This document shows, in pieces, positions 6,384-37,602 of a stretch of 64,000 nucleotides of DNA. The stretch spans positions 1,599,300 to 1,663,299 of the forward strand of contig OX639990.1 of NCBI GenBank assembly GCA_951828535.1, given 5' to 3'. The first letter of the stretch is position 1. Every line of letters starts with the position of its first letter. Under the pieces are notes generated by a model. The model worked only from the letters and a program-made list of their open reading frames with translations. It was not told the origin of the DNA and searched no databases. The stretch is from an uncultured Candidatus Entotheonella sp. (lineage in GTDB: Bacteria > Tectomicrobia > Entotheonellia > Entotheonellales > Entotheonellaceae). Both the position numbers and the translations under genes were made by a program.

Positions 6384-6541
6384 CGCTCCCGCCTTCCCCA
6401 CAATCCAAGACTCTTTGGATGATCTCCACTGGCCAGGATCCTCCCATGATGCGAAGCCCGGATGAACGCTCGTCCTGGTACGGAATCGTTGAAGAGTAAC
6501 GCGCTGATAATGACGTTTGTATCGAAGACGAAGCGGGTCAT
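6380..6541 (-). pseudogene. Truncated PIN-domain toxin (VapC-like), N-terminal stub
   Basis: A 53-codon frame reading 'MTRFVFDTNVIISALLFNDS' at its start, which is the first strand and first catalytic aspartate (FDTN) of a PIN ribonuclease. PIN toxins normally run to about 130 residues; here the homology stops after about 38 residues and the frame ends in unrelated residues at the hsdS start. Its ATG overlaps the antitoxin stop (ATGA), the usual arrangement for such pairs. It probably lost its 3' two-thirds in a deletion that brought hsdS up against it. Confidence 0.75.
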
Positions 6542-6762
6542 TCGTCGGCCAGGATGGATTGCAAAATATCGGGAGTCAGACCGCGCCGTTGCGCATTGCG
6601 GCTGATTTCCAGCATCGTGTCCCGAAGTGATTTCCCGGATTCCGTCGCATCACGCAAACACAAATTGACAAGCAAATCCAATTTGCGACGCTCGTTATCC
6701 GAGGCCGAACGGTAGAGTTTGGCTACATCGGGATCGACTGACACGGTTATCTGTTCCGGCAT
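6538..6762 (-). CDS. Putative antitoxin partner of truncated PIN toxin
   Basis: A 74-residue acidic-basic protein starting 'MPEQITVSVDPDVAKLYRSA', with a beta-strand-like N-terminus followed by helices ('ERRKLDLLVNLCLRDATES'). Small proteins of this type commonly precede PIN toxins. The ATG at 6762 has GGAGGGG 5 nt upstream, so the longer frame to 6843 is not needed. The toxin gene overlaps by 4 bp. Because the toxin is truncated, this antitoxin is probably a survivor without a partner. Family placement is inference from context. Confidence 0.6.
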   Translation of the reverse strand: MPEQITVSVDPDVAKLYRSASDNERRKLDLLVNLCLRDATESGKSLRDTMLEISRNAQRRGLTPDILQSILADE

Positions 6763-6872
6763 TTCTACCCCTCCGAGGCAAACGACTTCAGCGATAGCAG
6801 GGTTGCCGGGCCGGCCAATGCACCCAACGGCATTCCTGTACAAGGGGTCATGGTCATTGACGCTCAGCCGTT

Positions 6873-7100
6873 TTATCCTGTGATCTCTCTCGCATGAGTG
6901 ATGTCCGTGCGAGTTACCAGACGCGCTTGTGACGGCAGAACCGAGGCCAATGCCGCCGTGTTGCCATCAAGGGTCAGGAACTCCACCTCGAAAGCCTCGC
7001 CATTGGGATACATGTGGACGATCGTTCCAACGTCTCCCGCCTTCAAACCAAAATCGGAAATATCGTCCGTGAGCACAATGCGATCATGTTCTTCGAGCAT
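6873..7100 (-). CDS. DUF4926 domain protein
   Basis: A 75-residue protein matching DUF4926 as I recall it: 'LEEHDRIVLTDDISDFGLKA' followed by 'GDVGTIVHMYPNGEAFEVEF', a small SH3-like beta fold. The start at 7100 has AGGAGGG just upstream. It overlaps the preceding DUF6883 gene by 17 bp. The overlap suggests a toxin-antitoxin-like or immunity pair, but the biochemical role is not established by anything in the sequence. Confidence 0.7.
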   Translation of the reverse strand: MLEEHDRIVLTDDISDFGLKAGDVGTIVHMYPNGEAFEVEFLTLDGNTAALASVLPSQARLVTRTDITHAREITG

Positions 7101-7440
7101 CTTCCCTCCTGAGCGGATGTGCGGTGACGAGCCGTGGTTGGCTGCCCTCTTTGTCAATGATCCACACGGTTCTCACGTGTGGGTTACGTCCATCGGGTGT
7201 CTTGATTATGCCATCCACGCTGTAACGCACGCCATAGTCCGATGTCACGATTCCAGAGACTTCATTGCTCGTTCCGTGATCACGCAATGCAATGGCAAAG
7301 CTTTGCCATTGCTCTACATTAAACCCAAAGCTTGAGAAGAAGATGGCTTTGCTCCGACCGTCAGAATGGCTTGTCGAAAGCAGGTAATCGACGATCTTGG
7401 CAGCATCGACACGAGCTTGACGCGCATTGGGTAACTTCAC
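7084..7440 (-). CDS. DUF6883 domain protein
   Basis: A 118-residue protein starting at GTG 7440 (GGGGGA upstream): 'MKLPNARQARVDAAKIVDYL', then 'GRSKAIFFSSFGF', 'YGVRYSVDGIIKTPDGR' and 'VRTVWIIDKEG..PRLVTAHP'. These are the conserved blocks of DUF6883 as I recall them. The family is often found as a C-terminal toxin-like domain or as a solo gene beside DUF4926. Overlap with that gene and the position between hsdM and hsdS suggest an addiction module in the restriction operon (inference). Confidence 0.7.
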   Translation of the reverse strand: MKLPNARQARVDAAKIVDYLLSTSHSDGRSKAIFFSSFGFNVEQWQSFAIALRDHGTSNEVSGIVTSDYGVRYSVDGIIKTPDGRNPHVRTVWIIDKEGSQPRLVTAHPLRREDARRT

Positions 7441-7523
7441 TGATTCCCCCGACGATCAAACGTCATGTTCTCCGTAGGTTCGCAGGCGTAATTCGACGCT
7501 AATTTCAAAGTTAAACGCTTAAC

Positions 7524-9964
7524 TCATAGAAAGAGTCCCATCCGCTTCAAGTGTCCCTCGACCTTGGCGCCGAACGCTTCCACCTCCTGCTCCAACTCCG
7601 GCAACGGCTGTGCGTAGCGCTCCTCCAACTCTTTCACGCGCCCGGCAAGCTGCTGGGTCAACCGCTGCATTTCACCTTCGACAGCCTCCCGAATAGTAGC
7701 GAGCCATTTGTCCTCGACTACCAGCGTCTTGATCTCGGTCTCGGTGAGCATCGCGTAGCGGGCCAGCACCCGTTGATCCAGCTTGGTCTGGACGTCCTTG
7801 ACGGCCTTGCCCGTACTGGATTCAGCCTCGATCAGGGCAAGGCAGCGCTGGAGAGCAGCCTGTTCCTCGCCACTCTCCGGCTCGTGCTGAATGGTCTTGA
7901 GCCGGTCCTTCACGCCCGCCCTGGTCACCTTGCCCTTATCGTTGACCGCGTCCGTCAGCAGACCTTCCTCGCCGGTGCACTCCTCGACGAATGCCTCCAA
8001 CTCGCGGGCGGCTGTGTCCTGCTCGGCCTGGAATTGCTCAAGGGCGGCCTGCTCGGCAGCAGAATACCGCGCAACAACCAAGGGCGGGGGAATCAGATCC
8101 ATCTTATACTTCTTGCGTTCGATGGTCAGGTCCGGCGTCTCTTTGAGTTTCTTTTCCTTGTCCTCGATGATGCCGCGCGGTTTGGCCGCCTCGACCCAAC
8201 CCTCGGCGACGATGAGGTAGACGTCATCCTGCATCGTCTCGTCCCAGTAGTCCAACAGCCGCTGGTAGACGTCATAAGGGTCGAGCAGTGGCAGGACGGC
8301 GAAGCGCGCGAGCAGGTCTTCCGACAGGGTGTGGATAATGTCCTTGGGAGTGGCGTCTGACCCGATTCTCTTGAGAAGCGGCTCGTAAGTCTCACGCCAG
8401 CCGTCGAGGATGGCCGCCATCCGCTTACGGTAGGACTCGAACTCGCCGTGGCCGAGGATGGCGGCTTTCACCTGGTGCGTCTCGACCCGAGCCTCGCTGT
8501 AGCCTGCTCGCCCGTTGTCTGCGAACAACGCTTGCCGCATGGATGGAAAGACGGACCAGTAGACACCCAGGGCGTCAAGGTCGCGGTTGGGGATGCCGCC
8601 GTGCAGATGCGCGTCGAGGTCGTGCAGGTCCTCCAGCCCACTGGAGTTGATGTAGCGCGGGATATTGAGGTTGTAGTCGTTAGTCGCACTTGCGATTTCG
8701 GCCACCGGCACCATAGGGCGTAGCGCGGCACCTCGGTCTGCTTGGTGAACACGTCCACGATACGGTGGATGTCCTGGGCCCGCAGGCGGTTCTTGTTGCC
8801 GTCCTTGAGGAAGCCTTTGCTGGCGTCGATCATGAAAATACCGGTGCGAGCCTCGGCGTGTTCCTTATCCAGAACCAGGATGCAGGCGGGGATACCGGTG
8901 CCGTAGAAAAGGTTGGCCGGCAAACCGATGATGCCTTTGATGAGCCCGCATTGTATGAGATTCCGGCGGATGTCGGCCTCCCGGTTGCCGCGGAACAGCA
9001 CGCCGTGGGGCAGGATGATGGCGCCCTTCCCCTTGCTTTTGAGCGACTTGACGAGGTGCAGGAGAAAGGCGTAATCGCCGTTCTTGTCGGGGGGAATCCC
9101 ATACTCGAAACGCCTGAATTCATCGTGGGCCGGATCAAGACCGCTGGACCACGCCTTGGCGGAAAAAGGGGGATTGGCGACGGCGAAGTCGAAGGTCTTG
9201 AGACTGCCGTCGGAGTTCTTGAAATAGGGAGCGGCCAACGTATTGCCGCGCCACAACTCGGCAGTCGGGTGTCCGTGCAGGATCATGTTCATCCGCGCCA
9301 GCGACCAAGTGGCGTTGTCCATCTCCTGCCCGTAGACAGTAATGCTGTGCGGCGCCTCGTCGGCAGCCTTGAGGAGCAGCGAGCCGGAGCCGCAGGTGGG
9401 ATCGTAGATCGTCTGGTCCTGGCGGGTATCGGCGCCAATGCCGATCACTTTCGCCATAATGCGCGACACCTCGGCAGGGGTGTAAAACTGTCCCTTGCTC
9501 TTGCCGGACTCGGTGGCGAAGTGGCGCATCAGGTATTCGTAGGCATCGCCAAGCAGGTCGTCACCCTCGGCGCGGTTGGCGCGGAAGTCGAGGCCATCGA
9601 AGATGGCCACCAGCTTGGAGAGCCGATCCTGCATCTCCTTGCCCGCGCCGAGCTTGCTTTCGTCGTTGAAGTCGGCTTGGTCGATGACACCCTTGAGGTC
9701 ATTGGCCTCGGCGAGTCGAGCAATGATCTGGTTGATCTTGTCGCCGATCTCCTTGTCGCCCTTGAGCCGCACCATGTCGGCAAAGCCGCCGCCGTCGGGC
9801 ACGTCGATGAGCACGTCCGGCCTGCCGGCGTATTTGTCCGAGACGTACTTCATGAACAGCAGGGTAAGAACGTAGTCCTTGTACTGCGAGGCATCCATGC
9901 CGCCACGAAGCTCGTCACAACTCTGCCAGAGCGAGGCGTACAGTTGGGATTTTTTGAGGGCCAT
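7524..9964 (-). pseudogene. hsdM: Type I DNA methyltransferase subunit HsdM, frameshifted
   Basis: The N-terminal half (from ATG 9964, GAGGAG upstream) has the HsdM helical domain and an adenine-N6 methylase core: 'DPTCGSGSLLLKA' for S-adenosylmethionine and 'VANPPF' (catalytic NPPF). The second half, in another frame from about 8714, continues with 'NDYNLNIPRYINSSG' and a long charged helical tail. The expected 'PRYA-R-MVPVAEI' junction is broken: the DNA reads GCCCTATGG where GCCCGTATGG would keep the frame, so one base is missing between 8715 and 8716. The product would lose the C-terminal assembly region unless translation restarts at the ATG at 8714. A sequencing error is possible. Confidence 0.85.
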
Positions 9965-25427: not shown

Positions 25428-25706
25428 ATGATCCGAAGCTTCGCGGACCGGGATACAAGGTGTTTCTTCGAGGGCCGCCGTGTTGCTGCGTTCCAAGGGT
25501 TCGCTAATCTGGCTGCACGCCGCCTGACTCTGCTGGACAGCGCGGTGTCGCTCGAAGATCTGGCGGCGTTGCCGGGCAACCGGCTGGAGGCCCTTCGGGG
25601 CGGCCGCGTCGGGCAGTACAGCATCCGGATCAATGCGCAATGGCGCATCTGCTTCCGTTGGACAGATGATGGACCGTGCGACGTGGAGATCGTGGATTAC
25701 CACTGA
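25428..25706 (+). CDS. higB: HigB-like toxin (RelE superfamily)
   Basis: A 92-residue toxin of the plasmid-maintenance killer family: 'MIRSFADRDTRCFFEGRRV' and 'LEALRGGRVGQYSIRINAQW' then 'RICFRW', with the 'VEIVDYH' ending. Such toxins cut mRNA on the ribosome. It is 12 bp upstream of its antitoxin gene, in toxin-first order as typical for higBA. Complete. Confidence 0.93.
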   Translation: MIRSFADRDTRCFFEGRRVAAFQGFANLAARRLTLLDSAVSLEDLAALPGNRLEALRGGRVGQYSIRINAQWRICFRWTDDGPCDVEIVDYH

Positions 25707-25718
25707 GGGGCTAGAGAC

Positions 25719-26024
25719 ATGAACGCAAGAAACGGAATGAGGCCGGTGCATCCGGGCGAGATATTGCACGAGGAGCTTGACGCGCTCGGGCTGTCGGCCA
25801 GCGCGCTGTCGAAGGCGCTGGGCGTGCCGGTGAACCGGATTACGATGATCTTGCGCGGCCAGCGGAGCGTGACGGCCGACACGGCGTTGCGACTGGCGCG
25901 CTATTTCGGGACAACACCGGAACTCTGGCTGAATCTGCAAAAAACCTGGGAACTCCGCCGGGCAGAGATTGACACGGGCCAACAGATCACCAAACAGGTG
26001 AAGCCCCGACAAACCGCTGCGTAG
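25719..26024 (+). CDS. higA: HigA-like antitoxin (XRE family)
   Basis: A 101-residue helix-turn-helix antitoxin with the family opening 'MRPVHPGEILHEELDALGLS', the HTH 'SKALGVPVNRITMILRGQR', and 'ALRLARYFGTTPELWLNLQK'. It should neutralise HigB and repress the operon. A damaged second copy is at 22465. Confidence 0.94.
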   Translation: MNARNGMRPVHPGEILHEELDALGLSASALSKALGVPVNRITMILRGQRSVTADTALRLARYFGTTPELWLNLQKTWELRRAEIDTGQQITKQVKPRQTAA

Positions 26025-26042
26025 GCGAGCGAAGGTAAGCTG

Positions 26043-26251
26043 ATGCCCGTTCCCGACTATCAATCACTCATGCTGCCAGTGCTCAAGGCACTCGCCGACG
26101 GTGCGGAGACACCGATTTCCGAGACCTCCTGATCGCGATGGGCCATGTCACCGGCCGTTCAGGCGACGGTGGAATTGTCGGCGTGCGCATCCGGATTCGC
26201 CATGAGATCAAGCGGATTGACGAGGACTCTTTCGAGCAGGAAGCTTTGTAG
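26043..26251 (+). pseudogene. Mrr restriction endonuclease remnant with internal deletions
   Basis: The DNA starts with the Mrr N-terminal block 'MPVPDYQSLMLPVLKALADG' and reaches a stop. A second frame carries 'DFRDLLIAMGHVTGRSGDGG' from the Mrr catalytic region, joined directly to 'RIRIRHEIKRIDEDSFEQEA', the Mrr C-terminal end. So only the first, a central, and the last pieces of a roughly 300-residue methyl-specific endonuclease remain. It follows higA by 18 bp. Confidence 0.82.
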
Positions 26252-26335
26252 GCCGTGCGCTCATCATGGGGAGTGGCGTTCAGGCCGCCGGCGACGGTGG
26301 CCCCAGCAGCGCGACACACGAGAGGAGACCAGCGA

Positions 26336-26578
26336 TTGCTAGTCGAATACATACAGGCGGCCTTACGCCACGCGAAATATGAGCTATTGGCTGACGACGG
26401 TTCATTCTACGGCGAGATTCCAGTGTGCAACGGCGTTTACGCCAACGCCGCGACCTTGGAGGAATGCCGCGACGAATTGGCGGAGGTGCTGGAGGAGTGG
26501 ATTTTGTTCCGCGTGTACAAGAATCTCCCGGTACCCGCGATTGACGGCATTGAGCTGACGATCAAGGAAGTCGCTTAG
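26336..26578 (+). CDS. hicB: HicB-like antitoxin
   Basis: An 80-residue protein with the HicB partial RNase-H-like fold: 'AKYELLADDGSFYGEIPVCN' and 'GVYANAATLEECRDELAEVL'. It starts at TTG 26336 with AGGAG 8 nt upstream; no ATG fits. It overlaps the hicA start by one base (TAGTG), showing coupling. Antitoxin-first order is common in this family. Confidence 0.88.
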   Translation: MLVEYIQAALRHAKYELLADDGSFYGEIPVCNGVYANAATLEECRDELAEVLEEWILFRVYKNLPVPAIDGIELTIKEVA

Positions 26579-26802
26579 TGCCGCCATTTGGACCGATCAA
26601 GCAACGGGACTTGATTCGCTATCTGCGGCTCCTGGGGTTCGAAGGGCCATATTCAGGCGGGAGACATCAGTTTATGCTCAGGGTGGACACGACTATCAGG
26701 TTACCCAATCCCCATCAAGGCGACGTCGGCAGAGAACTCCTTGCAAGGATTCTACGCCAGGCACACGTCAGCCGGGAGGAACGGGAAGCTCTCTCAGGTT
26801 AA
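26578..26802 (+). CDS. hicA: HicA-like mRNA interferase toxin
   Basis: A 74-residue double-stranded RNA-binding-like toxin. It has the family pattern 'KQRDLIRYLRLLGFEGPYSG' with 'GGRHQFM' (catalytic His region) and 'LPNPHQGDVGRELLARILRQ'. It starts at GTG 26578, coupled to hicB. Complete. Confidence 0.9.
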   Translation: MPPFGPIKQRDLIRYLRLLGFEGPYSGGRHQFMLRVDTTIRLPNPHQGDVGRELLARILRQAHVSREEREALSG

Positions 26803-26812
26803 CCCCAGGCGC

Positions 26813-27131
26813 CTATCCTGGAACGAGGTTCGCGTTCGCGCCGCCGCCTTCGCAACAAATGACGGGAGGCGGCCTGCGAGAAGGGCGAGACGCAGAGCCT
26901 CTACAACGACTTCTTCCAGATATTCGGGATCGAGCCCGCACCGTCGCGCGCTACGAGGTGCACGTGGCGAAGCTGGGCAACCGGCAGGGGTTCATCGACC
27001 TGTTCTGGCCCGGCGGCTTCGCCTCGGAGCGCGAGCGCCTCGAGCATCTGTTCATGCGCTATGAGAAGATGCGGGCACCACTGGAAGCGGCGAGGAAGGG
27101 GAAACCGAGACGGCGGAGACGTGGGCGGTAG
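26813..27131 (+). pseudogene. DNA methyltransferase remnant (N- and C-termini only)
   Basis: Reading from CTA 26813: 'LSWNEVRVRAAAFATN-stop-REAACEKGETQSLYNDFFQIFGI', then after a frame change 'RTVARYEVHVAKLGNRQGFI' and 'DLFWPG'. This is the N-terminal block of large class I DNA methyltransferases (MmeI/PglX-like). It joins directly to a C-terminal block 'ERLEHLFMRYEKMRAPLEAA' with a basic tail. The start codon seems lost, TGG appears changed to TGA, a frameshift is present, and hundreds of central residues are missing. Confidence 0.72.
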
Positions 27132-27167
27132 TCACGAGCTGATTGAGGAACAGAGGGAGGGAAGTAT

Positions 27168-27437
27168 ATGGATGTAAAAGAAGTGGTACGGGTGGCAAAA
27201 AATTATGTTGCTGAACTATTTCGGGATGAAGACATTACCCATGTTGGGCTCGAAGAGGTTGATTTTGATCAATCGGATAACTGGGTCGTAACGATTGGAT
27301 TTTCTCGGCCGTGGGATCGAAACATCGGTTCTGTTCTAGCCGGGCAGGCTTCAAGGTCTTACAAAGTTGTACGAATCCGAGACGAGGATGGCAAGGTCCT
27401 GTCCGTGAAGGAGCGCACTTTAGGAGATTCAGGGTAA
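27168..27437 (+). CDS. Small protein, putative partner of PIN protein
   Basis: An 89-residue protein of unknown function, 'MDVKEVVRVAKNYVAELFRD' at the start, with alternating beta and helical character and no recognised domain. GGGAGGGAAG lies upstream of the ATG. It ends 4 bp before the PIN-domain gene, so the two are almost certainly co-expressed. It may be the antitoxin or a sensor for the PIN nuclease (inference only). Confidence 0.7.
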   Translation: MDVKEVVRVAKNYVAELFRDEDITHVGLEEVDFDQSDNWVVTIGFSRPWDRNIGSVLAGQASRSYKVVRIRDEDGKVLSVKERTLGDSG

Positions 27438-27441
27438 GCCC

Positions 27442-27900
27442 ATGTTCATCGACACAAACCTGCTCGTTCTGCTCGTCGTGGGTGAGACGGATAAGGCTCT
27501 GATCTCCAAGCATCGCCGCACAAGAGCCTATCGAGTACAAGACTACGAACGGTTGGTGAGATTGATCAACGAGGCTGACCATCAAGTGTTTGTCACACCC
27601 AACACGCTCACCGAGACATCCAATCTGCTTGCCCAGCGCAGGGAGCCGGAACGCTCGCGTCTGTTCGGCGTGCTCCAGGCTCTCATCGGAACAGCCGAAG
27701 AGACAGTGGTTGAAAGCAAGGTTGCAACCCGCAACAGCCATTTCAAACGGCTTGGCCTTACCGACGCCGTTCTCCTGGAAGTCGTTTCGGCATCCAATCC
27801 CTTGGTCACGGTGGACCTGGATTTGTACCTCGCGGCTTCGGAGAAAGAAGCAGGAGCCGCGTATAACTTCACACACTACCGGGACTTCCAAACCCTCTGA
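27442..27900 (+). CDS. PIN-domain ribonuclease, putative toxin
   Basis: A 152-residue PIN protein. 'MFIDTNLLVLLVVG' carries the first catalytic Asp, 'TETSNLL' an acidic residue, 'LTDAVLLE' the next Asp, and 'LVTVDLDLYLAA' the last acidic pair. It is complete, unlike the PIN stub at 6380. With the 89-residue gene upstream it forms a probable toxin-antitoxin pair that does not match standard VapBC sizes. Confidence 0.8.
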   Translation: MFIDTNLLVLLVVGETDKALISKHRRTRAYRVQDYERLVRLINEADHQVFVTPNTLTETSNLLAQRREPERSRLFGVLQALIGTAEETVVESKVATRNSHFKRLGLTDAVLLEVVSASNPLVTVDLDLYLAASEKEAGAAYNFTHYRDFQTL

Positions 27901-27921: not shown

Positions 27922-27950
27922 TTGACAGCCATAACGCCCTTGCCTAGCAT
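27922..27950 (+). promoter_or_regulatory. Sigma-70-type promoter for the peroxidase operon
   Basis: TTGACA at 27922-27927, 17 bp, then TAGCAT at 27945-27950. This near-consensus pair lies 38 bp before the cytochrome c peroxidase start and after the PIN gene stop, so it probably drives the peroxidase-kinase-regulator operon. Confidence 0.55.
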
Positions 27951-27988
27951 GCGCGCCTTGTTTCACCATGGATGCGTAAGGGCTGGAA

Positions 27989-29017
27989 ATGACCGTGTGG
28001 GCTATCGGCAAATCAGTTGTTGTGCGAATCGCGCTGGCCGTCATGGCGCTGCACCTCGCCTGCGCCGGGACAGCGCTGAACGCCGAAACACCCTTGCCAT
28101 CCGCGGGCGCCTGGGACAGCGAGCCGATCGTCCCGATTCCTCTTTCCACCGATCTTGATGCCGGGCAGGTCGCCCTCGGCGAGAAGCTGTTTCACGACCC
28201 GCGCCTGTCGCGTAACAACGCCTTTTCCTGCGCCACCTGCCACCGGCTCAACCAGGGCGGCGGCGACGGTGTGTCACGGCCCCCGACCCTCACGGGCGGC
28301 CTGCATCTGCGCAACACCCCGACCGTTTTCAATGTGGCGTTGAATTCCCGCTTCCATTGGGACGGCGGCTTCCGCACGCTCGAAGCGGAAGCTGAAGCCG
28401 CCATCCATGATCCCGCCATCATGAACAGCGATTGGGCGGACGTTTTGCCCAAGTTGCAAGCCGATGCCGACTACGTGAGCACCTTTAACACCGCCTACCC
28501 CGGCGGGCTGACGCGAGCAAACGTGCTGCACGCCCTCGCCAGTTTCCAGCGCTCGCTGAACACGCCCAATTCGCGCTTCGACCAGTATCTGCGCGGCGAC
28601 GCCGACGCGCTCAGCGACGATGAAAAACAGGGCTACGACCTGTTCAAGGCCTTCGGCTGCGCCGCCTGCCACCAAGGCGTCAACGTGGGCGGCAACATGT
28701 TCCAGCGCTTCGGCATCTTCCGCAACCAGAACCGGCCGCACGAAGACGAGGACGCGGGTCGCTTCAGCGTCACCGGCGCGGAGCGCGACCGGCAGGTGTT
28801 TCGCGTGCCGAGCCTGCGCAACGTGGCGGTGACGGCGCCCTATTACCACGACGGACGCGTGCAAAGCCTCGAAACCGCGGTGGACCTGATGGCCACCCGA
28901 CAGCTCGGCAGGCCACTGTACCCTGAGGAGATCGAACTCATCGTGCAATTCCTGCACACGCTCACCGGCGAATACCAGGGGCAGTTGCTAGCCCTCCCGG
29001 ACGAGGACGGATCGTAA
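27989..29017 (+). CDS. Di-haem cytochrome c peroxidase / MauG family protein
   Basis: A 342-residue periplasmic di-haem protein with an N-terminal signal segment (about residues 10-33). Two haem-binding motifs are visible: CATCH at residues 81-85 and CAACH at 224-228, with the family blocks 'RNTPTVFNVALNSRFHWDG' and 'VPSLRNVAVTAPYYHDG'. Members either reduce peroxide with cytochrome c electrons or, like MauG, oxidise protein side chains to build quinone cofactors. Its stop overlaps the kinase start by one base (TAATG), tying it to a two-component system. Confidence 0.93.
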   Translation: MTVWAIGKSVVVRIALAVMALHLACAGTALNAETPLPSAGAWDSEPIVPIPLSTDLDAGQVALGEKLFHDPRLSRNNAFSCATCHRLNQGGGDGVSRPPTLTGGLHLRNTPTVFNVALNSRFHWDGGFRTLEAEAEAAIHDPAIMNSDWADVLPKLQADADYVSTFNTAYPGGLTRANVLHALASFQRSLNTPNSRFDQYLRGDADALSDDEKQGYDLFKAFGCAACHQGVNVGGNMFQRFGIFRNQNRPHEDEDAGRFSVTGAERDRQVFRVPSLRNVAVTAPYYHDGRVQSLETAVDLMATRQLGRPLYPEEIELIVQFLHTLTGEYQGQLLALPDEDGS

Positions 29018-30723
29018 TGGGCATCCCATGGAGGCGGCTTCTGGTCGTCACCGGCCTCTTGCTGCTGCTGACGTTCTTGCTGCTTCAGAGCAGAAGTCCC
29101 GACGTGGGCTTGCGGGAACGCATATACGAAACGTTGCACGTCTTTGAGGTGCACGATGCCGAGTTGAACCGCGACGTGCTGCTGGCGCGTGCCGGTTTGC
29201 TGCCCCATTACGATTCGTTGTCGGAAGCCACGGACGGCCTATACGGCGCCCTGCACGGCCTGGAATCCTGGAACGAGACGGCGTCCGAGGAGTTCAGCGC
29301 GGCCATCGGCGGGCACGTCACGGACCTGTCGCGCGCCGTGCGGGAGAAAGAAACACTGCTCGAATACTTCAAGGCCGACAACGCCCTGCTGCGAAACTCG
29401 CTGACGTACTTCCTGCACACTGGCCACCTGCTCAGCACCCAGACGGTAGTGAACAACCGCGCCGTGGCCGCGGCCATCGGCACCCTGTCCAATGCCATGC
29501 TGCGCTTCGTGCGCACGCCGCAGCGGGCGGTCAGCAACGAGATCAGAACGGCCCTCAACCAAATGACCGGCGCCAACTTGTTGCAGCACGATCTGCACAT
29601 CCTGGTCTTGCACGGACACCTGATCGTCGACGTGCTGCCCGAAGTGGACGACCTGCTGCGTCAACTACTGGCCGCCCCCACCACGACACGGGTGCGGGCG
29701 CTGCGGGACGCCTCGCTGCAGTACTACGGCCAGATGGAAGCGCGGGCGCAGACCTACCGCATCCTGCTGTATCTCGTTGCCGTCGTGCTGCTGGCCTACC
29801 TGGTCTACCTGTTCAATCGCCTGCGCGCCAACGCCCGCGACCTCGGACGCGCCAATACACGCCTGCGCCGCGAGATCGACGAACGCACGCGCCTGGAAGA
29901 AAAGGCGCGTGAGCAGGAGCTGCAACTGATCCAGGCCAACAAGATGACCGCGCTCGGCACCCTGGTTGCCGGCGTGGCGCACGAGATCAACAACCCGAAC
30001 AATCTGACGATGATGAACGCACGCGTGCTGGCCGAGGCATGGGGCGATGCGCAGTACATCCTGGAGAATTACCACGACGAGAACGGCGAGTTTCTCATCG
30101 GCGGACTGCCGTATGCGGAAATGCGCGAGACGGTGCCCGCACTCATCCGCGACATGCACGTGGGTGCGCAGCGCATCGAGCGCATCGTCAACAGCCTGAA
30201 GGATTTCGCGCGCCCCCGGCAGCAGGCCGTGCAGGCCACCCTGCAGGTCAACGAGGCGGTGCAGCGAGCGCTGAACCTGCTGCGCCACCGCATCGCCAAG
30301 ACGATAGATTTCCAGGTCGAGCTCGCCGAGGGGCTGCCGCCGCTGCAGGGCGACATGCAGCAGATCGAGCAGGTGGTGGTCAACCTCATCACCAACGCCC
30401 TGGAGGCGCTGCCAGAGGAAGGCGGACAGGTGACGGTATCGACGCGGTATAATCAGGACGACCACGACATCGAAATCGACGTGCGGGACACCGGCATCGG
30501 CATCCCGCAGCAAAACGTCGAACGGCTATGCGATCCGTTTTTCACGACTAAGCAGGAGCAGGGCGGCACGGGCCTCGGCCTCGCCATCACCTACACGCTG
30601 GTGCGCGACCACGGCGGCAACCTGGTGTTCGAGTCTACCCCCGGCGAAGGAACCCGAGCGCGCGTGACGCTGCCGTGTCCCGCCGAATCGCCGGTGCCCG
30701 CGCCGCAAGCCCTGCAGGTTTAG
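29017..30723 (+). CDS. DAHL-domain sensor histidine kinase
   Basis: A 568-residue membrane kinase. TM1 is near residues 8-26; the periplasmic part is a helical DAHL-type sensor containing 'LNRDVLLARAGLLPHYDSL'; TM2 is near residues 248-268. A coiled linker leads to the phospho-acceptor 'GVAHEINNPN' (His322) and an ATPase domain with N-box 'NLITNALEAL', G1 'DTGIGIP' and G2 'GGTGLGLAI'. Overlap with the peroxidase gene and the following NtrC-type gene make it the probable sensor of a sigma-54 system. Confidence 0.92.
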   Translation: MGIPWRRLLVVTGLLLLLTFLLLQSRSPDVGLRERIYETLHVFEVHDAELNRDVLLARAGLLPHYDSLSEATDGLYGALHGLESWNETASEEFSAAIGGHVTDLSRAVREKETLLEYFKADNALLRNSLTYFLHTGHLLSTQTVVNNRAVAAAIGTLSNAMLRFVRTPQRAVSNEIRTALNQMTGANLLQHDLHILVLHGHLIVDVLPEVDDLLRQLLAAPTTTRVRALRDASLQYYGQMEARAQTYRILLYLVAVVLLAYLVYLFNRLRANARDLGRANTRLRREIDERTRLEEKAREQELQLIQANKMTALGTLVAGVAHEINNPNNLTMMNARVLAEAWGDAQYILENYHDENGEFLIGGLPYAEMRETVPALIRDMHVGAQRIERIVNSLKDFARPRQQAVQATLQVNEAVQRALNLLRHRIAKTIDFQVELAEGLPPLQGDMQQIEQVVVNLITNALEALPEEGGQVTVSTRYNQDDHDIEIDVRDTGIGIPQQNVERLCDPFFTTKQEQGGTGLGLAITYTLVRDHGGNLVFESTPGEGTRARVTLPCPAESPVPAPQALQV

Positions 30724-30742
30724 CGGAAGGAGAACCCCAAGC

Positions 30743-32179
30743 ATGGCGTCTACCGCTTCATCACCGCTCCCCATTCTGCTGGTGGACGACGAGCCGCAGT
30801 TGTTGCGGAGCGCCAGCGTGTTGCTGCGCTCCTCCGGCGTCAAGCACGTCGTCACCCTCGACGACAGCCGCGCGGTCATGCCGCTGCTGAGCGAGCAGGA
30901 CGTGGGCGTCATCGTGCTCGACCTCGCCATGCCGCACGTCACCGGCCAACAGCTACTCGGGCAGATCGCCGCCGGCTATCCCGACGTGCCGGTGATTCTG
31001 ATGACCGCCACCAACGACCTGGACACCGCCGTGCAGTGCATGCAGGGCGGCGCCATCGACTACCTTGTCAAGCCGGTGGAAAAGAACCGCTTCGTGTCGT
31101 CGGTGACGCGGGCGCTGGAAATCCGCAACCTGCGCGAGGAGGTGCTGTCGCTGAAGGAGCACCTGCTGACCGAAAGGCTCGATCAGCCCGACGCCTTTAC
31201 TGCCATTGTGACGCAGAGCAAGGCGATGCACGCCATTTTCCGCTACGTCGAGGCCATTGCCGCGTCGCGCCAGCCGGTGTTGATCACCGGCGAGACGGGC
31301 ACCGGCAAGGAACTGCTGGCGCGCTCGGTTCACACCGTATCGCACGGGCAGGGGGAACTGGTCGCCGTCAACGTCGCCGGGCTGGACGATACGATGTTCT
31401 CCGACACCCTGTTCGGCCACACCAAGGGCGCCTTTACCGGCGCCGACCAGGCGCGCAGCGGGCTGATCACGCAGGCGGCCGACGGCACCTTGTTCCTGGA
31501 CGAAATCGGCGACCTGGCCATCCCGTCGCAGGTCAAATTGCTGCGCCTACTGCAGGAGGGGACGTATTACCCGCTCGGCGCCGATAATCCGCGTCAGAGC
31601 AGCGCGCGGGTTATCGTGGCGACCAACGTGGACATCGTGGAGCGGGTCAACGCCGGGGCGTTTCGCAAGGACCTCTATTACCGCCTGCGGGCCCACCACC
31701 TACACGTCCCGCCGCTGCGCGAGCGTCAGGAAGACTTGCCGCTGCTGATCAACCATTTTCTGGAAAATGCCGCCCAGGAGTTGAGCAAGCCCACGCCGAC
31801 ACCGCCGATGGAGCTATTTCGCCTGCTGAAAACGTATGCGTTCCCCGGCAACGTGCGCGAGCTGGAAGCGATGATCTTCGACGCCGTCGCCCAGCACCAA
31901 GGCGGCGTCCTGTCGCTCAAAACCTTCAGGTCCGTCGCCTTCGACCGGCGCAACGGCCCCGACGACGGCCCGCAAGCGAGCGCCGCTATGGAAAACCTGT
32001 CGTCCCTCTTCCCCGACTGTCTGCCGACCCTGAAAGAAGCCGAGCAGGCGCTGATCGCCGAGGCCCTGCAACGCGCCGACGGCAATCAGGGCATCGCCGC
32101 CGGCATGCTCGGCCTGACCCGCCAGGCGTTGAACAAGCGTCTGACGCGGCAAAAATCGCCCGATCCTGTTGAGCCGTGA
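30743..32179 (+). CDS. Sigma-54-dependent response regulator (NtrC family)
   Basis: A 478-residue regulator. Receiver domain: acidic 'VDDEP', phospho-acceptor Asp60 in 'VLDLAMP' and Lys110. AAA+ domain: Walker A 'GETGTGKE' at 183-190, the sigma-54-contacting loop GAFTGA at 229-234, Walker B 'LFLDEIGD' and the arginine region 'FRKDLYYRL'. It ends with a Fis-type HTH ('NQGIAAGMLGLTRQALNKRL'). GGAAGGAGA precedes the ATG. A perfect sigma-54 promoter lies 199 bp beyond its stop, in front of pqqA, which is its most likely target. Confidence 0.94.
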   Translation: MASTASSPLPILLVDDEPQLLRSASVLLRSSGVKHVVTLDDSRAVMPLLSEQDVGVIVLDLAMPHVTGQQLLGQIAAGYPDVPVILMTATNDLDTAVQCMQGGAIDYLVKPVEKNRFVSSVTRALEIRNLREEVLSLKEHLLTERLDQPDAFTAIVTQSKAMHAIFRYVEAIAASRQPVLITGETGTGKELLARSVHTVSHGQGELVAVNVAGLDDTMFSDTLFGHTKGAFTGADQARSGLITQAADGTLFLDEIGDLAIPSQVKLLRLLQEGTYYPLGADNPRQSSARVIVATNVDIVERVNAGAFRKDLYYRLRAHHLHVPPLRERQEDLPLLINHFLENAAQELSKPTPTPPMELFRLLKTYAFPGNVRELEAMIFDAVAQHQGGVLSLKTFRSVAFDRRNGPDDGPQASAAMENLSSLFPDCLPTLKEAEQALIAEALQRADGNQGIAAGMLGLTRQALNKRLTRQKSPDPVEP

Positions 32180-32207
32180 GCCACCGCAAAAAGGGGTGCG
32201 ACAATTT

Positions 32208-32330
32208 TTGCAGGCGCAACTGACGTATCAGAAATATAAGTGATTGTATACAAGTGGGTTATGGAGAATCAGGGCGTACCATACTACAGTCTGTCGCAGG
32301 GGCTTGCCGGACGGACAGGAAACGGCCTGT
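32208..32330. promoter_or_regulatory. Candidate activator-binding inverted repeats upstream of pqqA
   Basis: Two small inverted repeats lie in the 198-bp gap before the sigma-54 promoter: TTGC-AGGC-GCAA at 32208-32219 and ACAGG-N6-CCTGT at 32315-32330. They are about 160 and 50 bp upstream of the -24 element, within or near the range where NtrC-type enhancers act. Neither is proven; they are the only symmetric sites I noticed here. Confidence 0.3.
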
Positions 32331-32377
32331 GGCCGCAACTGCCTTATTTCTGGGGCGATAGAAGGCTGAAGAAATTC

Positions 32378-32393
32378 TGGCACACAGCTTGCA
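32378..32393 (+). promoter_or_regulatory. Sigma-54 promoter of pqqA
   Basis: TGGCACACAGCTTGCA matches the consensus TGGCAC-R-N4-TTGCW at every fixed position, with GG at 32379-32380 and GC at 32391-32392 separated by the required 10 bp. Transcription should start about 32403, giving a leader of about 75 nt that contains a 6-bp hairpin (CCCCCG at 32422 with CGGGGG at 32433). The NtrC-type activator gene lies directly upstream. Confidence 0.9.
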
Positions 32394-32478
32394 GGGATAA
32401 TGGTGACGATGTTGACAAGTTCCCCCGCTGAACGGGGGATGACAACCACGGGAAGCGACTCCCTGAAGGAGAGAATCA

Positions 32479-32553
32479 ATGAAGTGGACCAAGCCTGCTT
32501 ATCAGGACAAGCGTTTCGGTTTTGAGCTCACGATGTACATCCTCAATCGCTAA
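32479..32553 (+). CDS. pqqA: PqqA, pyrroloquinoline quinone precursor peptide
   Basis: A 24-residue peptide with the PqqA signature: 'MKWTKPAYQDKRFG' then 'FELTMYILNR'. The conserved Glu and Tyr that PqqE joins to make PQQ are spaced E-x3-Y, as required, and the C-terminal 'NR' is typical. The ATG has AAGGAGAG 5-6 nt upstream. It is a single-gene transcription unit with its own sigma-54 promoter and terminator; no pqqB, C, D or E follows. The gene is below the size limit of most gene finders. Confidence 0.9.
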   Translation: MKWTKPAYQDKRFGFELTMYILNR

Positions 32554-32572
32554 AACGATTGTTGATGCGCAA

Positions 32573-32604
32573 GGGGCCTCGGGGAAACCCGAGGCCCCTT
32601 TTTT
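32573..32604 (+). terminator. Rho-independent terminator of pqqA
   Basis: GGGGCCTCGGG, a GAAA loop, then CCCGAGGCCCC form a perfect 11-bp stem, followed directly by six T. It ends 51 bp after the pqqA stop, so pqqA is transcribed alone. The following 200 bp to 32806 show no gene. Confidence 0.95.
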
Positions 32605-32806: not shown

Positions 32807-33910
32807 CTACGTCACAGGAGGCAGCGGTTCCACTCTCTCGTTCACTCTTGGCAGCACTTCGTTCATCAGCAGTTCCAAAGTATGACGCAGCCGTTCCGGC
32901 TGGTCGCCCCAGTCGGTTGGGCTCCACAGCAGAGTGCCGAATCCCCCGGTGGTCCTATACATATCGACGATCCTGTCGGTAACGGTATCGACCGAGCCGA
33001 TAATCCAACTCGTCTTCATGAAGTACTCGGGTGTCACTTCCGCATCCGACACTGACGGGTCGTGCTTAAGGTGCCCCAGGAAATTAAAAGCGTTGTAGAG
33101 TTGCCACAGGTATTCGCGGCACGACCTGCCGAGCGGTCCCTCGTAGGCCAGGCGCTCCGCCTCCGCATCGGTATCGGCGACCAGGATCTCGGTTTGGACG
33201 CGCCACTTGCTGCGATCGGGCTTGAAACCCGCGGCCTCGGCAGCCTCCACATAGGTTTCCCAGTGGCCGTGGGTGTACTCGTCGTTGAGGTGGATGCTCA
33301 ACGGCATGAAGCCGTAGGAACCGGCGAGCCTGATGGTCTCCGAGCGTGGCGATACCACCGCCATGCCGATCGGCGGATGCGGCTTGGTGAACGTGTGCAT
33401 GTGATGACGATAGTTGCCCTCGACCAGCTCCGGCGGAATGTGCACGTTCCAGTACTTGCCCTTGTACTCGAACTCACCTTCCGCGGCCCAGATGCCCAGC
33501 ATGATGTCGAGCGCTTCGCGCATCATGACGCGGTTCTCGCCGCCCATGCCATCGACGCCGAAGGCCATAAAGTCGCCCTGATGCGCCCCCGCGGCGACGC
33601 CGAGCTGTAGGCGGCCCTGCGCCAGGTGGTCCAGGAAAGCGACCCGGTGGGCCAGCTCGACGGGGTGGTGGTACGGCAGCAGGTGAGCGCCCGGGGCGAG
33701 CTTGATACGCTCGGTCTGCAGCAGGGCCTGAGCGATGGTCAGATCGGGCGACGGGTTGGGCTCCCAGGTCACCGTGAAATGCTCACCGATCCACGCTTCG
33801 GTGACACCGAGTTCGTCGCCCCATCGAAGTGATTGCAGATCGTACTGGTGCCAGTCATATGGCTTTCTTTCCGGCGGATGCGCCGGCATCATGAAGTAAC
33901 CGAGATCCAT
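32807..33910 (-). CDS. LLM-class flavin-dependent oxidoreductase
   Basis: A 367-residue luciferase-like TIM-barrel protein: 'MDLGYFMMPAHPPERKPYDW', 'AWIGEHFTVTWEPNPSPDL', 'LLPYHHPVELAHRVAFLDHL' and 'GVAAGAHQGDF' are blocks of this monooxygenase class. It probably uses reduced FMN. The start at 33910 has GGAG 8 nt upstream. It diverges from an ABC importer, with paired candidate operators between them, so it is probably part of the same catabolic regulon. Substrate unknown. Confidence 0.9.
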   Translation of the reverse strand: MDLGYFMMPAHPPERKPYDWHQYDLQSLRWGDELGVTEAWIGEHFTVTWEPNPSPDLTIAQALLQTERIKLAPGAHLLPYHHPVELAHRVAFLDHLAQGRLQLGVAAGAHQGDFMAFGVDGMGGENRVMMREALDIMLGIWAAEGEFEYKGKYWNVHIPPELVEGNYRHHMHTFTKPHPPIGMAVVSPRSETIRLAGSYGFMPLSIHLNDEYTHGHWETYVEAAEAAGFKPDRSKWRVQTEILVADTDAEAERLAYEGPLGRSCREYLWQLYNAFNFLGHLKHDPSVSDAEVTPEYFMKTSWIIGSVDTVTDRIVDMYRTTGGFGTLLWSPTDWGDQPERLRHTLELLMNEVLPRVNERVEPLPPVT

Positions 33911-33981
33911 AGTTTCGTCTCCTGATCTTCTACGTATGCAACCTTGCGCCAATCCATCCGAAACGAGCCAACTGCAGATAG

Positions 33982-33995
33982 TTCCTATATGGGAA
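33982..33995. promoter_or_regulatory. Candidate operator TTCCTATATGGGAA, copy 1
   Basis: A near-palindrome (TTCC...GGAA) 72 bp before the oxidoreductase start. An identical 14-base copy lies at 34218-34231. Paired sites in a divergent promoter suggest regulator binding, most likely by the IclR protein encoded at 38625. Confidence 0.6.
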
Positions 33996-34217
33996 ATCAG
34001 TTCACATTCATTAATCTACCACCGACATGTTGCCAGCACAAGACGATTTCCCGGTTTTTCCCAGCGTTGACCAGCCAGCAGGATACCGGGGCCCGTGCGG
34101 CGCGGGGGGACGGCGGCAGCGGCTCCGACCGGAGGGCCGGACGGCCCGGCTGCGGGCGGTACGAATCATCTTGTTTTGGACGGGGCTCTATGGTACTTCT
34201 ATCAAGTATGAACTCAT

Positions 34218-34231
34218 TTCCTATATGGGAA
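34218..34231. promoter_or_regulatory. Candidate operator TTCCTATATGGGAA, copy 2
   Basis: Identical to 33982-33995 and located 29 bp before the ABC substrate-binding protein start, where bound protein would block or activate transcription. The 222 bp between the copies contain no gene. Confidence 0.6.
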
Positions 34232-34259
34232 CAAACCGGTCAACATTAGGAGGGACGTC

Positions 34260-35657
34260 ATGAGTCTTGGTCACGCTATCAAACTGTCTCGACGAACCTT
34301 TCTCAGAGGGACCCTGGGGACCGTCGCCCTGGTGACAGCCCTGGCGATCTGGGCGCCAACCATCCTGACGGCTGCGGAGCACGCACTGCCGCTCGGCGAA
34401 GCACGCTTCACCCAGAAATTCCAAGGCGCGAGGCTCAACGTGTTGATGATCGACCTGACGCTGTCGTTCGAGATACAGAAGCGCCTCCCCGAGTTTGAAC
34501 GGATGACCGGCATCTCCGTCAACATCGAGATCTCTCCCTACAACGCCTATCATCCGAAGGCGATGCTGCCGCTGGCGAGCGGGGCTGCTACGTATGACGT
34601 GATGATGGTTGACGTCCCTTGGGTAGCCGAATTCGTTGGCACGAACAACCTCCTGCCCCTGGACGATTTCGTTGCGAAGGAGGACCCGTTCTACTTCAAA
34701 GACATGGTCCCGGAACTCATCAACGTCATGAACGGCAGCCAGGACAAGCTATACTCTCTTGCCACCTTGCCAACCACGCAGCTGCTCAGCTATCGCAAAG
34801 ACGTCTTTGAACAGGAGGCGGCAAATTACCTGGCGGCAACCGGGCAAGAGCTGAACGTGCCGACGACGTGGCGCGAGTATGCTGACGTGGCAAAGTATTT
34901 CACGAAGAGGCTGAATCCGGAGTCGCCGACGGACTTTGGCGTAACCATGACCGGAACGCCAGGCAACGGCGCGTTGAACATGTTCCAGCCGGTCCTGTGG
35001 GGCATGGGCGCACGCGAGTTTGACAACGATTACAATGTCACCATCAATGACGAAAAGGCCTTGGCGGCGTGGAATCTGTTCGCCGAACTGGGCCAAGCCG
35101 CTGAGGACGGCGTTGGATCCGTCTACTGGGATGACATGAACAAGGTCTACCAGTTCGGCAAGGCGGCCATGATGTTCATGTATCACGTGTTCGTGGTCGG
35201 GAACGAGCAGGAAGATTCGCCTGTCCAGGGGAAATCGGGTTATGGCATCATCCCCGGCGGCACCCCCGTCATTGGCGGCTGGTCGACGTCGATCAACAAG
35301 AACACGGCCAACCCGGAGGCCGCGTGGGAGTTCCTGCGCTGGATCACCGGACCCGAAATCGCCAAGGATCTGTTCATCGCGGGTGGAGCAACGGCGCGAG
35401 CCTCGGTCCTGACGGATGCAGATATGGTCAGTCAGTATCCGTTCCTACCGGCGCTCCTTGACTCGTACAAGTTGGTCCAGAACCGCGCCAGCGCGTGCGC
35501 CGCATGTCCACCAATCATCCCCGAAGCACAGTACGAAATTCAGACCGGGGCGGAGGCGAGCGCGGTACTCAGCGGCGCCAAGACCCCGGAGCGGGCGGCC
35601 AACGATGCCGCCCATGCTCTGGAGCAATTGCTGAAAGACTTCGGCTACCGGCAATAG
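34260..35657 (+). CDS. ABC transporter solute-binding protein, Tat-exported (sugar type)
   Basis: A 465-residue extracellular binding protein of family 1 (carbohydrate type). The N-terminus has a twin-arginine motif 'SRRTFLRG' followed by a hydrophobic stretch, so it is probably exported folded by Tat. 'FERMTGISVNIEISPY', 'ASGAATYDVMMVDVPW' and 'IIPGGTPVIGGWSTSINKNT' are typical blocks. AGGAGGG precedes the ATG. Two permease genes follow. The ligand could be a sugar, polyol or related compound. Confidence 0.92.
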   Translation: MSLGHAIKLSRRTFLRGTLGTVALVTALAIWAPTILTAAEHALPLGEARFTQKFQGARLNVLMIDLTLSFEIQKRLPEFERMTGISVNIEISPYNAYHPKAMLPLASGAATYDVMMVDVPWVAEFVGTNNLLPLDDFVAKEDPFYFKDMVPELINVMNGSQDKLYSLATLPTTQLLSYRKDVFEQEAANYLAATGQELNVPTTWREYADVAKYFTKRLNPESPTDFGVTMTGTPGNGALNMFQPVLWGMGAREFDNDYNVTINDEKALAAWNLFAELGQAAEDGVGSVYWDDMNKVYQFGKAAMMFMYHVFVVGNEQEDSPVQGKSGYGIIPGGTPVIGGWSTSINKNTANPEAAWEFLRWITGPEIAKDLFIAGGATARASVLTDADMVSQYPFLPALLDSYKLVQNRASACAACPPIIPEAQYEIQTGAEASAVLSGAKTPERAANDAAHALEQLLKDFGYRQ

Positions 35658-35770
35658 CTCGCGGACCTTTGTCTACCGTGGAAGCCAGTCCAACCAACGT
35701 CCGACCGCGGTATAGCCGGACTTGTGGCTGGCTTCCAGCCTGAACCGGGTGCCTTATCGTAAGGGTATTG

Positions 35771-36697
35771 ATGCTGACCACCACGCACACGCCTGGCCAC
35801 CAGCGCCGGTCCTTGATTTCGGAACGGATGGTTCCCTGGCTCTTTCTCGCGCCAGGCCTCCTCGTCATCCTCGCACTCGCCCTCTACCCCTTTCTGTATG
35901 CCCTCAGCACGTCGCTCCACAGCTACTATCTGGCCAACCCGGCTGGCAGCCGCTGGGTGGGCTTCGACAACTTCACCGCCTTCTTTCGTGACAACAATTT
36001 CTGGGACAACGTGACCACTACGATTCGTTACGTCGGTGTCGCCGTGGGCATCGAGATTCCTCTCGGCTTTGGTATCGCTCTTCTTCTGCACACCCAGACC
36101 CGTTTCAAGCTTGTGTGGCGGGCGGCGCTCATCATTCCGGTGACCCTGGCGCCGGTCGTCGTCGGCGCGCTGTGGAAATTCATGTACAACAACCAATTCG
36201 GCATTATCACGTATCTCACGGGTCTCGTGGGTTTTGAATCGCTTTTTCTTGGCGGCCCCAACTCGGCCCTGTGGTCGATTATCGTTCCCGAAATTTGGCA
36301 ATGGACGCCATTCGTCACCCTCATCTGCCTGGCCGGGCTGGCCACGCTCCCGGACGAACCTTATGAGGCCGCGGCCGTCGACGGCGCCTCGGCCTGGCAG
36401 ATACTGCGCTACATCACACTGCCCTTGATGAAGCCATTCTTGACGATCGCGTTCGTGCTGCGGTTGATCACGGCCTACAAGGTATTTGACCCGATCTACC
36501 TGATGACGGGGGGCGGACCGGGCATATCCACGCAGGTGCTGTCGATCCGCGTCTACGAGCTAGGGTTCGCGACCCTACAGATGGGCCGGGCGTCAGCCCT
36601 GGCCCTCCTGCTGTTCATCGTGGCGACCCTGCTGACCAAATTCGTCGTCCTCAGGCTGCTCGAATCGAGGCAAGACGACGAGGGACGTCGCTTATGA
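35771..36697 (+). CDS. ABC transporter permease, MalF-like
   Basis: A 308-residue inner-membrane permease with six predicted helices and the EAA loop 'EAAAVDGASAWQILRY', which contacts the ATPase. The 'MTGGGPG' segment is typical of MalF/UgpA-type subunits. The start ATG at 35771 is preferred to the TTG just before it. It overlaps the next permease by 4 bp. Confidence 0.93.
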   Translation: MLTTTHTPGHQRRSLISERMVPWLFLAPGLLVILALALYPFLYALSTSLHSYYLANPAGSRWVGFDNFTAFFRDNNFWDNVTTTIRYVGVAVGIEIPLGFGIALLLHTQTRFKLVWRAALIIPVTLAPVVVGALWKFMYNNQFGIITYLTGLVGFESLFLGGPNSALWSIIVPEIWQWTPFVTLICLAGLATLPDEPYEAAAVDGASAWQILRYITLPLMKPFLTIAFVLRLITAYKVFDPIYLMTGGGPGISTQVLSIRVYELGFATLQMGRASALALLLFIVATLLTKFVVLRLLESRQDDEGRRL

Positions 36698-37602
36698 ACA
36701 TGCCAGGCAAGAGCCACCCCTCCCCTTCCCTCTTGCGGCCCATACGCCGAGACAGAACCCTGGCGCCAGTACGTTCAGCGCGACTTGCGTTCACATGGTC
36801 TGTCACCGCACGCTGTGTGCTTGTTATTCTCGTGTTTCTTTTCTTCGCTTTCCCCATATACTGGCTCGTTACGCTTTCGTTCAAAGCCGACACGGACGCC
36901 TGGGTCATTCCCCCGAAATGGACGTTCGCCCCGACGCTGGCGCATTACCAGAAGCTGATCACCACCTGGCCGTTCTTTACCTACTACCTGAACAGCTTCA
37001 TCGTGGTTTGCGGCGCCCTGTTCGTGTCCGTGCTCCTCGGCGTGCCTCTGGCGTACGCTCTGGCGCGCTTCAAGTGGCGACAGACGCGGAACATCTCCTT
37101 CATTATTCTTAACCAATTGATGATGCCGCCGGCGGCGGTGGTGGTGCCGTTTTACCTCATATGCCGGCAACTTGGCATCCTGCAGACGCTGTGGGCTCCC
37201 ATGCTCGTGTACGTGGCCTTTACCCTTCCGTTCATCACCTGGATCATGAAGGGGTTTTTCGAGAGCGTACCTCATGATATCGAAGAGGCGGCGTTGGTTG
37301 ACGGCGCCGGGAACTTCCAGGTCCTCTGGCACATCGTGCTTCCCCTGGTGCTCGGCGCTCTGTCGTCCACGACTCTGCTTGCCGCCATTACGATCTGGAA
37401 CGAATTCTTTTTTGCTCTGGTCCTGACGGGTACGACGACCTATACGGCGCCGGTCGCCATTATGGGGCTGTGGACGCAGTACACGGTGTACTGGGGTTCC
37501 ATCGCCGCGGGAGGCGTACTCATTTCGCTCCCGATCGTCATCGTGGGCCTGATCGTCCAGCGCCACCTGGTGACGGGCTTGACGTTTGGCGCGGTGAAGT
37601 AA
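36694..37602 (+). CDS. ABC transporter permease, MalG-like
   Basis: A 302-residue permease with six helices and the EAA loop 'EEAALVDGAGNFQVLW'. It belongs to the MalG/UgpE side of carbohydrate importers. It overlaps the upstream permease (ATGA). No ATP-binding gene follows, so the transporter must borrow an ATPase encoded elsewhere. Confidence 0.93.
   Translation: MNMPGKSHPSPSLLRPIRRDRTLAPVRSARLAFTWSVTARCVLVILVFLFFAFPIYWLVTLSFKADTDAWVIPPKWTFAPTLAHYQKLITTWPFFTYYLNSFIVVCGALFVSVLLGVPLAYALARFKWRQTRNISFIILNQLMMPPAAVVVPFYLICRQLGILQTLWAPMLVYVAFTLPFITWIMKGFFESVPHDIEEAALVDGAGNFQVLWHIVLPLVLGALSSTTLLAAITIWNEFFFALVLTGTTTYTAPVAIMGLWTQYTVYWGSIAAGGVLISLPIVIVGLIVQRHLVTGLTFGAVK

Follow-up and report, generated by a model that had tools for sequence, protein, structure and literature searches.

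Gene content and conservation of the pqqA unit

We analysed a stretch of 64,000 nucleotides (nt) from an uncultured Candidatus Entotheonella sp. (contig OX639990.1, positions 1,599,300 to 1,663,299), referred to here as the window. Between positions 27,989 and 32,604 it carries genes for a di-haem cytochrome c peroxidase (CCP), a DAHL sensor kinase and an NtrC-type response regulator, followed by a sigma-54 promoter box and by pqqA, a short gene for the precursor peptide of pyrroloquinoline quinone (PQQ), with its own terminator. An earlier reading of the letters alone (the sequence-only reading) had proposed these parts in this order, and all of them were confirmed; the limits of pqqA were corrected to a start at 32479 and an end at 32553. 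The features, all on the plus strand, are as follows.

27922-27950, +: sigma-70-like promoter, TTGACA-N17-TAGCAT, before the CCP, kinase and regulator genes; a consensus match only, of which chance alone would give 0.6 in the region
27942-32603, +: block conserved in a sister species, 90.2% nt identity, both flanks unrelated (alignment to the sister genome)
27989-29017, +: di-haem CCP of the CcpA type, with a signal-peptide-like N-terminus and two CXXCH motifs (PF03150)
29017-30723, +: membrane sensor histidine kinase with a periplasmic DAHL domain at residues about 30-248 (PF19443, HisKA, HATPase_c)
30743-32179, +: NtrC-type response regulator with a receiver, a sigma-54 AAA+ domain with GAFTGA and a Fis-type helix-turn-helix (HTH) (Response_reg, Sigma54_activat, HTH_8)
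32378-32393, +: sigma-54 -24/-12 promoter, TGGCACACAGCTTGCA, about 86 nt 5' of the pqqA start codon
32421-32439, +: pqqA leader hairpin with a stem of 7 base pairs (bp), weak (fold z -2.1 and -1.4)
32466-32473, +: putative pqqA ribosome-binding site, AAGGAGAG, assigned by reading
32479-32553, +: pqqA, 24 amino acids, MKWTKPAYQDKRFGFELTMYILNR (PF08042, TIGR02107)
32571-32604, +: intrinsic terminator of pqqA, a 13-bp stem at 32571-32600 and a T tail (fold z = -5.0)

The ATG of the kinase gene overlaps the CCP stop codon as TAATG (29015-29019), and the DAHL domain matches its profile with an E value of 1.5e-51 (PF19443). The window peptide scores above the curated cut-offs of both PqqA models (32.3 versus 21.1 bits for PF08042, 34.9 versus 20 bits for TIGR02107) and shows the short length and E-x-x-x-Y spacing of PqqA. 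A scan against Rfam gave nothing above the gathering score, the strongest weak matches falling on the pqqA terminator.

Alignment to the genome of the sister species (L012) gave one collinear block that runs from the CCP promoter region to the pqqA terminator and includes the four genes. Given these limits, the four genes either move together or are retained together. Within the block pqqA is identical at 75 of 75 nt, synonymous sites included, and the other three genes are 90.1-91.8% identical. The -24/-12 elements are kept and the spacer between the two boxes is altered; likewise the stems of the leader hairpin and the terminator are kept with altered loops, the sequence of the leader stem being altered as well. 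Only the -10 part of the sigma-70-like promoter falls inside the block. Gene order and the -24/-12 site, the conservation of which in relatives had been put forward as a check by the sequence-only reading, are thus both retained in the sister between rearranged flanks. At the edge of the block, a transposase-like open reading frame (ORF), identified by reading, lies directly 5' of the unit in the sister (L012 9036-10385). The nearest relative in the collection (L007) has a kinase that is 92% identical, and its pqqA lies at the same place as in the genus-mate G001.

The window genome (G000) is a single contig of 3.6 Mb, 92% complete, and all genome-wide statements about it are based on family (profile) and pattern searches. 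It contains one match to PqqA. The same early reading had suggested a search for pqqBCDE and PQQ dehydrogenases; pqqBCDE were located at 709.6-712.8 kb of G000:C1, on the strand opposite to pqqA and about 0.92 Mb from it. The run of pqqB-C-D-E and then an ATP-binding cassette (ABC) transporter ATPase ORF spans 708.6-712.8 kb, with a PQQ-dehydrogenase gene nearby; in all, the genome has 11 PQQ-dehydrogenase-like ORFs and one copy of rpoN. PqqA and PqqE were both found in the genus members G000 and G001, and neither was found in the other family or class genomes G002-G004 (G002 being 77% complete). This joint presence or joint absence fits the window peptide as a working precursor.

Sigma-54 sites and activators at pqqA

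The region before pqqA has a GG-N10-GC box, the genome encodes RpoN, and the adjoining regulator carries GAFTGA. Within 200 nt 5' of pqqA, the sigma-54 score of the site was equalled by none of 1000 shuffles. The perfect 16-mer pattern occurs at 6 sites genome-wide and at 6 for the reversed control, and was dropped as evidence on its own. No strong sigma-54 site was found before the 11 PQQ-dehydrogenase ORFs or pqqB, where the best score was 16.5 of 19 versus 18.5 for pqqA. Because both the block and the box are conserved in the sister, sigma-54 control of pqqA by the adjoining regulator is a well-supported prediction. At a separate locus (L041, genome position 955592, minus strand), a perfect sigma-54 consensus, TGGCACAAAGATTGCT, stands just 5' of two Hsp20-like (small heat-shock-like) ORFs.

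The comparison sample comprised 399 Pseudomonadota genomes, 64 of which yielded pqqA loci; the flanks were scored for sigma-54 sites, and 92 pqqA genes were covered. The top scores among the 92 belong to Candidatus Thiodictyon syntrophicum, the window, the sister and four Burkholderiales-type loci. With window and sister excluded, a GG-N10-GC site that scores at least 16.5 is present, at -81 to -102, at 5/5 pqqA loci that have a same-strand sigma-54 activator gene upstream, versus 6/85 of the remaining pqqA loci (Fisher p 1e-5). Sigma-54 control of pqqA is thus a recurrent arrangement. In the pqqABCDE loci of Burkholderiales (Burkholderia multivorans, Variovorax boronicumulans), as in the window, the activator gene is directly 5' of pqqA on the same strand and a -24/-12-like site is present, there 81-102 nt 5' of the codon for the conserved Trp of PqqA. 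However, the two Burkholderiales activators scanned are one-component GAF-AAA-HTH proteins, whereas that of the window is a response regulator, and pqqA there heads a complete pqqABCDE operon with neither a CCP nor a DAHL kinase. The window differs from this pattern in receiving a two-component input and in having its pqqA physically separated. Burkholderiales loci with both activator and site are L088 (5602-8072), L090 (5717-8075), L102, L103 and L108.

A stand-alone sigma-54 unit for pqqA had been regarded as unusual. This holds for the lone, unlinked, single-copy pqqA, which was seen in only 2 of the 64 pqqA-bearing Pseudomonadota genomes (G310 and G248), but not for the sigma-54 logic, in which the Burkholderiales operons are alike; the unusual part of the arrangement is the unlinked lone pqqA, not its sigma-54 control. 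No description of a stand-alone sigma-54 pqqA was found in the open PubMed Central (PMC) subset, subscription papers not being covered. The lone pqqA of G310 (L104, about 5000-5075) has a -24/-12-like site, AGGCACGGTGTTTGCA (p 0.005), and adjoins ORFs that read as Calvin-cycle and C1-metabolism genes (sequence reading only). A paper on exaA/pqqA regulation in Azospirillum brasilense (PMC12826043) cites sigma-54 control of exaA. On that account, sigma-54 takes part in the regulation of PQQ alcohol oxidation there, as it would in the window, but the reported target is a PQQ dehydrogenase, with a LuxR-type regulator, whereas in the window pqqA itself carries the site.

Two further arrangements of pqqA were seen. 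Genomes G430 and G332 (L157, L160) have three tandem copies inside about 300-700 bp. An alphaproteobacterial locus (L170, about 5000-8343, reverse strand) has an unlinked pqqA and then genes for a CCP, 41% identical to that of the window, for a NarL-like regulator and for a kinase without DAHL. It may be a coincidence and was rejected as a second case of the arrangement: one occurrence in about 90 pqqA loci is near a rough chance estimate, the kinase is not of the DAHL type, and a terminator-like sequence stands 3' of pqqA.

The CCP and its DAHL kinase partner

The window CCP belongs to the CCP_MauG family (PF03150, E 8e-51; 173 bits versus a cut-off of 25.6). In a comparison with the PDB the best CcpA-type peroxidases give 211-240 bits and MauG gives about 65, and with the NCBIfam model for MauG (TIGR03791) the protein reaches 160 bits, under the cut-off of 443.85. 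Its Met301 aligns without gaps with Met275, a haem ligand of P. aeruginosa CcpA; MauG carries Tyr294 at this axial-ligand position. The initial description "MauG/CcpA-like" is thus borne out as to the CcpA type and fails as to the MauG type, on both the axial Met and the structure scores. With the bacterial CCPs (P. aeruginosa CcpA, 1eb7; N. europaea, 1iqc) the protein shares the fold family, the two haem motifs and the equivalents of Trp94 and Met275. It differs from CcpA in having Leu for His71, Glu for the catalytic Gln104 and Ile for the catalytic Glu114, and so lacks the Gln104 and Glu114 equivalents of a catalytic bacterial CCP.

The unexpected result of this analysis is the pairing of such CCPs with DAHL kinases. 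A search of the 399 Pseudomonadota genomes with PF19443 gave matches in 62, 51 of them above the cut-off. At 35 of the 36 distinct DAHL loci inspected in this sample a CCP gene lies directly upstream on the same strand, the distance from the end of the CCP alignment to the DAHL domain usually being 120-220 nt. Outside the sample six genomes had matches above the cut-off, and the CCP was present in five of them, including the window's own. Among genomes with the pair are G595, which is not of the window's class, and the family member G003, in which the pair occurs without PQQ genes and with a different response regulator. The pair is also found on named plasmids of Vitreoscilla, Rhizobium, Indioceanicola and Bradyrhizobium. 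As at the loci of VirA-like/DAHL kinases with an upstream CCP in these four genera and many other Pseudomonadota, the CCP gene of the window overlaps or abuts the kinase gene; those loci differ from it in having hybrid kinases, GGDEF-EAL proteins or other response regulators and no pqqA. The outputs found behind DAHL domains are histidine kinase, hybrid kinase and GGDEF-EAL.

We propose the CCP-DAHL sensory pair as a grouping, defined by a same-strand CCP gene immediately 5' of the DAHL gene; the window locus belongs to it. The near-invariant pairing argues that the CCP is the partner of the kinase and not of PqqA. No description of the pairing was found in the same open-access literature. The conserved residues of the DAHL domain are YD, K, FK, N..RNS and H; an AlphaFold2 model of the domain, built from a two-row alignment, had a mean predicted local distance difference test score (pLDDT) of 48.6, which was not good enough to search for similar folds. 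The pairing loci are L172-L201, L210, L211, L216, L218, L228, L232, L233 and L235.

The CCP could instead be an ordinary periplasmic peroxidase that scavenges H2O2 and is co-regulated with the kinase, with no part in sensing. An alignment of 36 proteins (34 DAHL-linked CCPs, the window and the sister) has features that speak for this explanation: both haem motifs, the bridging Trp94 and Met275 are kept in all 36, a Gln104-type residue in 30 and a Glu114-type residue in 25. However, the position of CcpA His71 holds His in none of the 36, the window CCP has E and I at the Gln104 and Glu114 positions, and the CCP stands directly 5' of the DAHL gene almost without exception, regardless of the output domain. 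We consider a plain scavenger unlikely.

Among named organisms, Photobacterium sp. GJ3 (plasmid pGJ3-1) has the closest relative of the kinase and regulator, with 44% identity in the kinase core and 49% in the regulator. As in the window, a -24/-12 site lies just 3' of the regulator gene. Its kinase, however, has by reading a periplasmic solute-binding-type head in place of DAHL, the downstream gene reads as a transporter, and there is no pqqA or adjoining CCP. Sensor heads and outputs thus appear to have been swapped. Between the regulator and the transporter-like gene, 5' of the -24/-12 site, a 15-bp perfect inverted repeat (TATAACCAAAGGAAT/ATTCCTTTGGTTATA; L006 8435-8620) is a candidate activator site.

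The neighbours of the unit in the window lie outside the conserved block. Just 5' of it, at 25428-27900, are toxin-antitoxin-like small gene pairs (HigBA-like, HicBA-like and PIN-like by reading); a Pfam scan of 27442-27900 gave no match. On the 3' side, 32807-37602 holds a luciferase-like monooxygenase gene and a sugar-type ABC transporter, the binding protein of which was confirmed and the permeases of which were assigned by reading.

Proposed control of PQQ precursor supply

These observations suggest that pqqA works together with the CCP, the DAHL kinase and the NtrC-type regulator in a single functional unit that gates the supply of the PQQ precursor, a reading to which we give a probability of about 0.6. 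The exported di-haem CCP and the DAHL domain of the kinase would act as a two-protein periplasmic sensor, a co-sensing role suggested by their near-invariant pairing. The kinase would phosphorylate the regulator, which with RpoN would open the -24/-12 promoter 5' of pqqA. The resulting transcript, of about 200 nt, would stop at its own terminator, so that the peptide would be produced only when called for, and the PqqBCDE proteins, encoded about 0.92 Mb away, would turn it into PQQ for the PQQ dehydrogenases of the cell. In such a scheme the supply of peptide would presumably limit PQQ. Control of pqqA by the kinase-regulator pair, as first suggested, is well founded as a prediction, given a sole unlinked pqqA, the presence of rpoN, a conserved block that includes the box, and the co-occurrence of PqqA with PqqE. 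We infer activation by the regulator itself from its position beside pqqA, from the conservation of the block and from the parallel in Burkholderiales, since most members of its subfamily lack such a site.

Several observations weigh against this reading. Conservation is shallow, as the unit was found in only two species. A search 5' of the promoter gave no conserved palindrome as an activator site; the inverted and direct repeats considered for this role are not conserved. In the subfamily of the regulator a sigma-54 site lies directly downstream in 2 of 11 members, so that adjoining its own target is not a family rule, and a rule that the next gene has a sigma-54 site was rejected. DAHL and pqqA occur together in 6 genomes, where 9.9 would be expected; the CCP-DAHL pair thus has no general tie to PQQ.

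These points lend some weight to the alternative that pqqA depends on sigma-54 but answers to another activator, the adjoining pair acting mainly elsewhere and its adjacency being only partly functional. The genes of most related regulators have no sigma-54 promoter beside them, no conserved upstream activating sequence was found at pqqA, and the CCP-DAHL module is also present where PQQ genes are lacking, for instance in a family member whose regulator is of another type. On the other hand, exactly these four genes with promoter and terminator have stayed joined between rearranged flanks in the sister, and an activator gene adjoining pqqA recurs independently. We therefore regard another activator as distinctly unlikely.

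It is highly improbable that the window pqqA is a decaying or foreign duplicate, with PQQ made from another, unrecognised PqqA. The gene is unlinked, and its region is edged by rearrangements and, in the sister, by the transposase-like ORF; but the one-contig genome has no second PqqA match, the gene is completely identical in the sister, its ribosome-binding site, promoter and terminator are intact, and it co-occurs with pqqE. The suggestion that the di-haem enzyme matures PqqA or a PQQ enzyme in the manner of MauG, which has family membership and adjacency within one unit in its favour, is barely credible and was dropped, given the Met ligand, the family and structure scores, an export-type N-terminus where PqqA processing is cytoplasmic, and CCP-DAHL pairs that sit apart from PQQ genes in other genomes. 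The unit is real and conserved; its regulatory reading is likely, and the maturase reading is not.

More tentatively, DAHL sensors in general may be two-protein haem sensors, in which a periplasmic di-haem CCP that lacks the distal His of the peroxidatic haem reports redox state, peroxide or another haem ligand to the DAHL domain. In this lineage such a sensor would be coupled by way of sigma-54 to the only gene for the PQQ precursor, and all oxidation that depends on PQQ would then be controlled through the supply of the cofactor. If the proposed gating is correct, a signalling unit devoted to this task would control an essential redox cofactor at the stage of the ribosomally made peptide from which it derives, and PQQ supply would be testable with a single reporter. 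The CCP-DAHL pairing supplies a definite partner, and a type of signal open to testing (haem or redox), for a common sensor domain that was found above the cut-off in 51 of the 399 sampled Pseudomonadota genomes, the VirA-like rhizobial kinases included.

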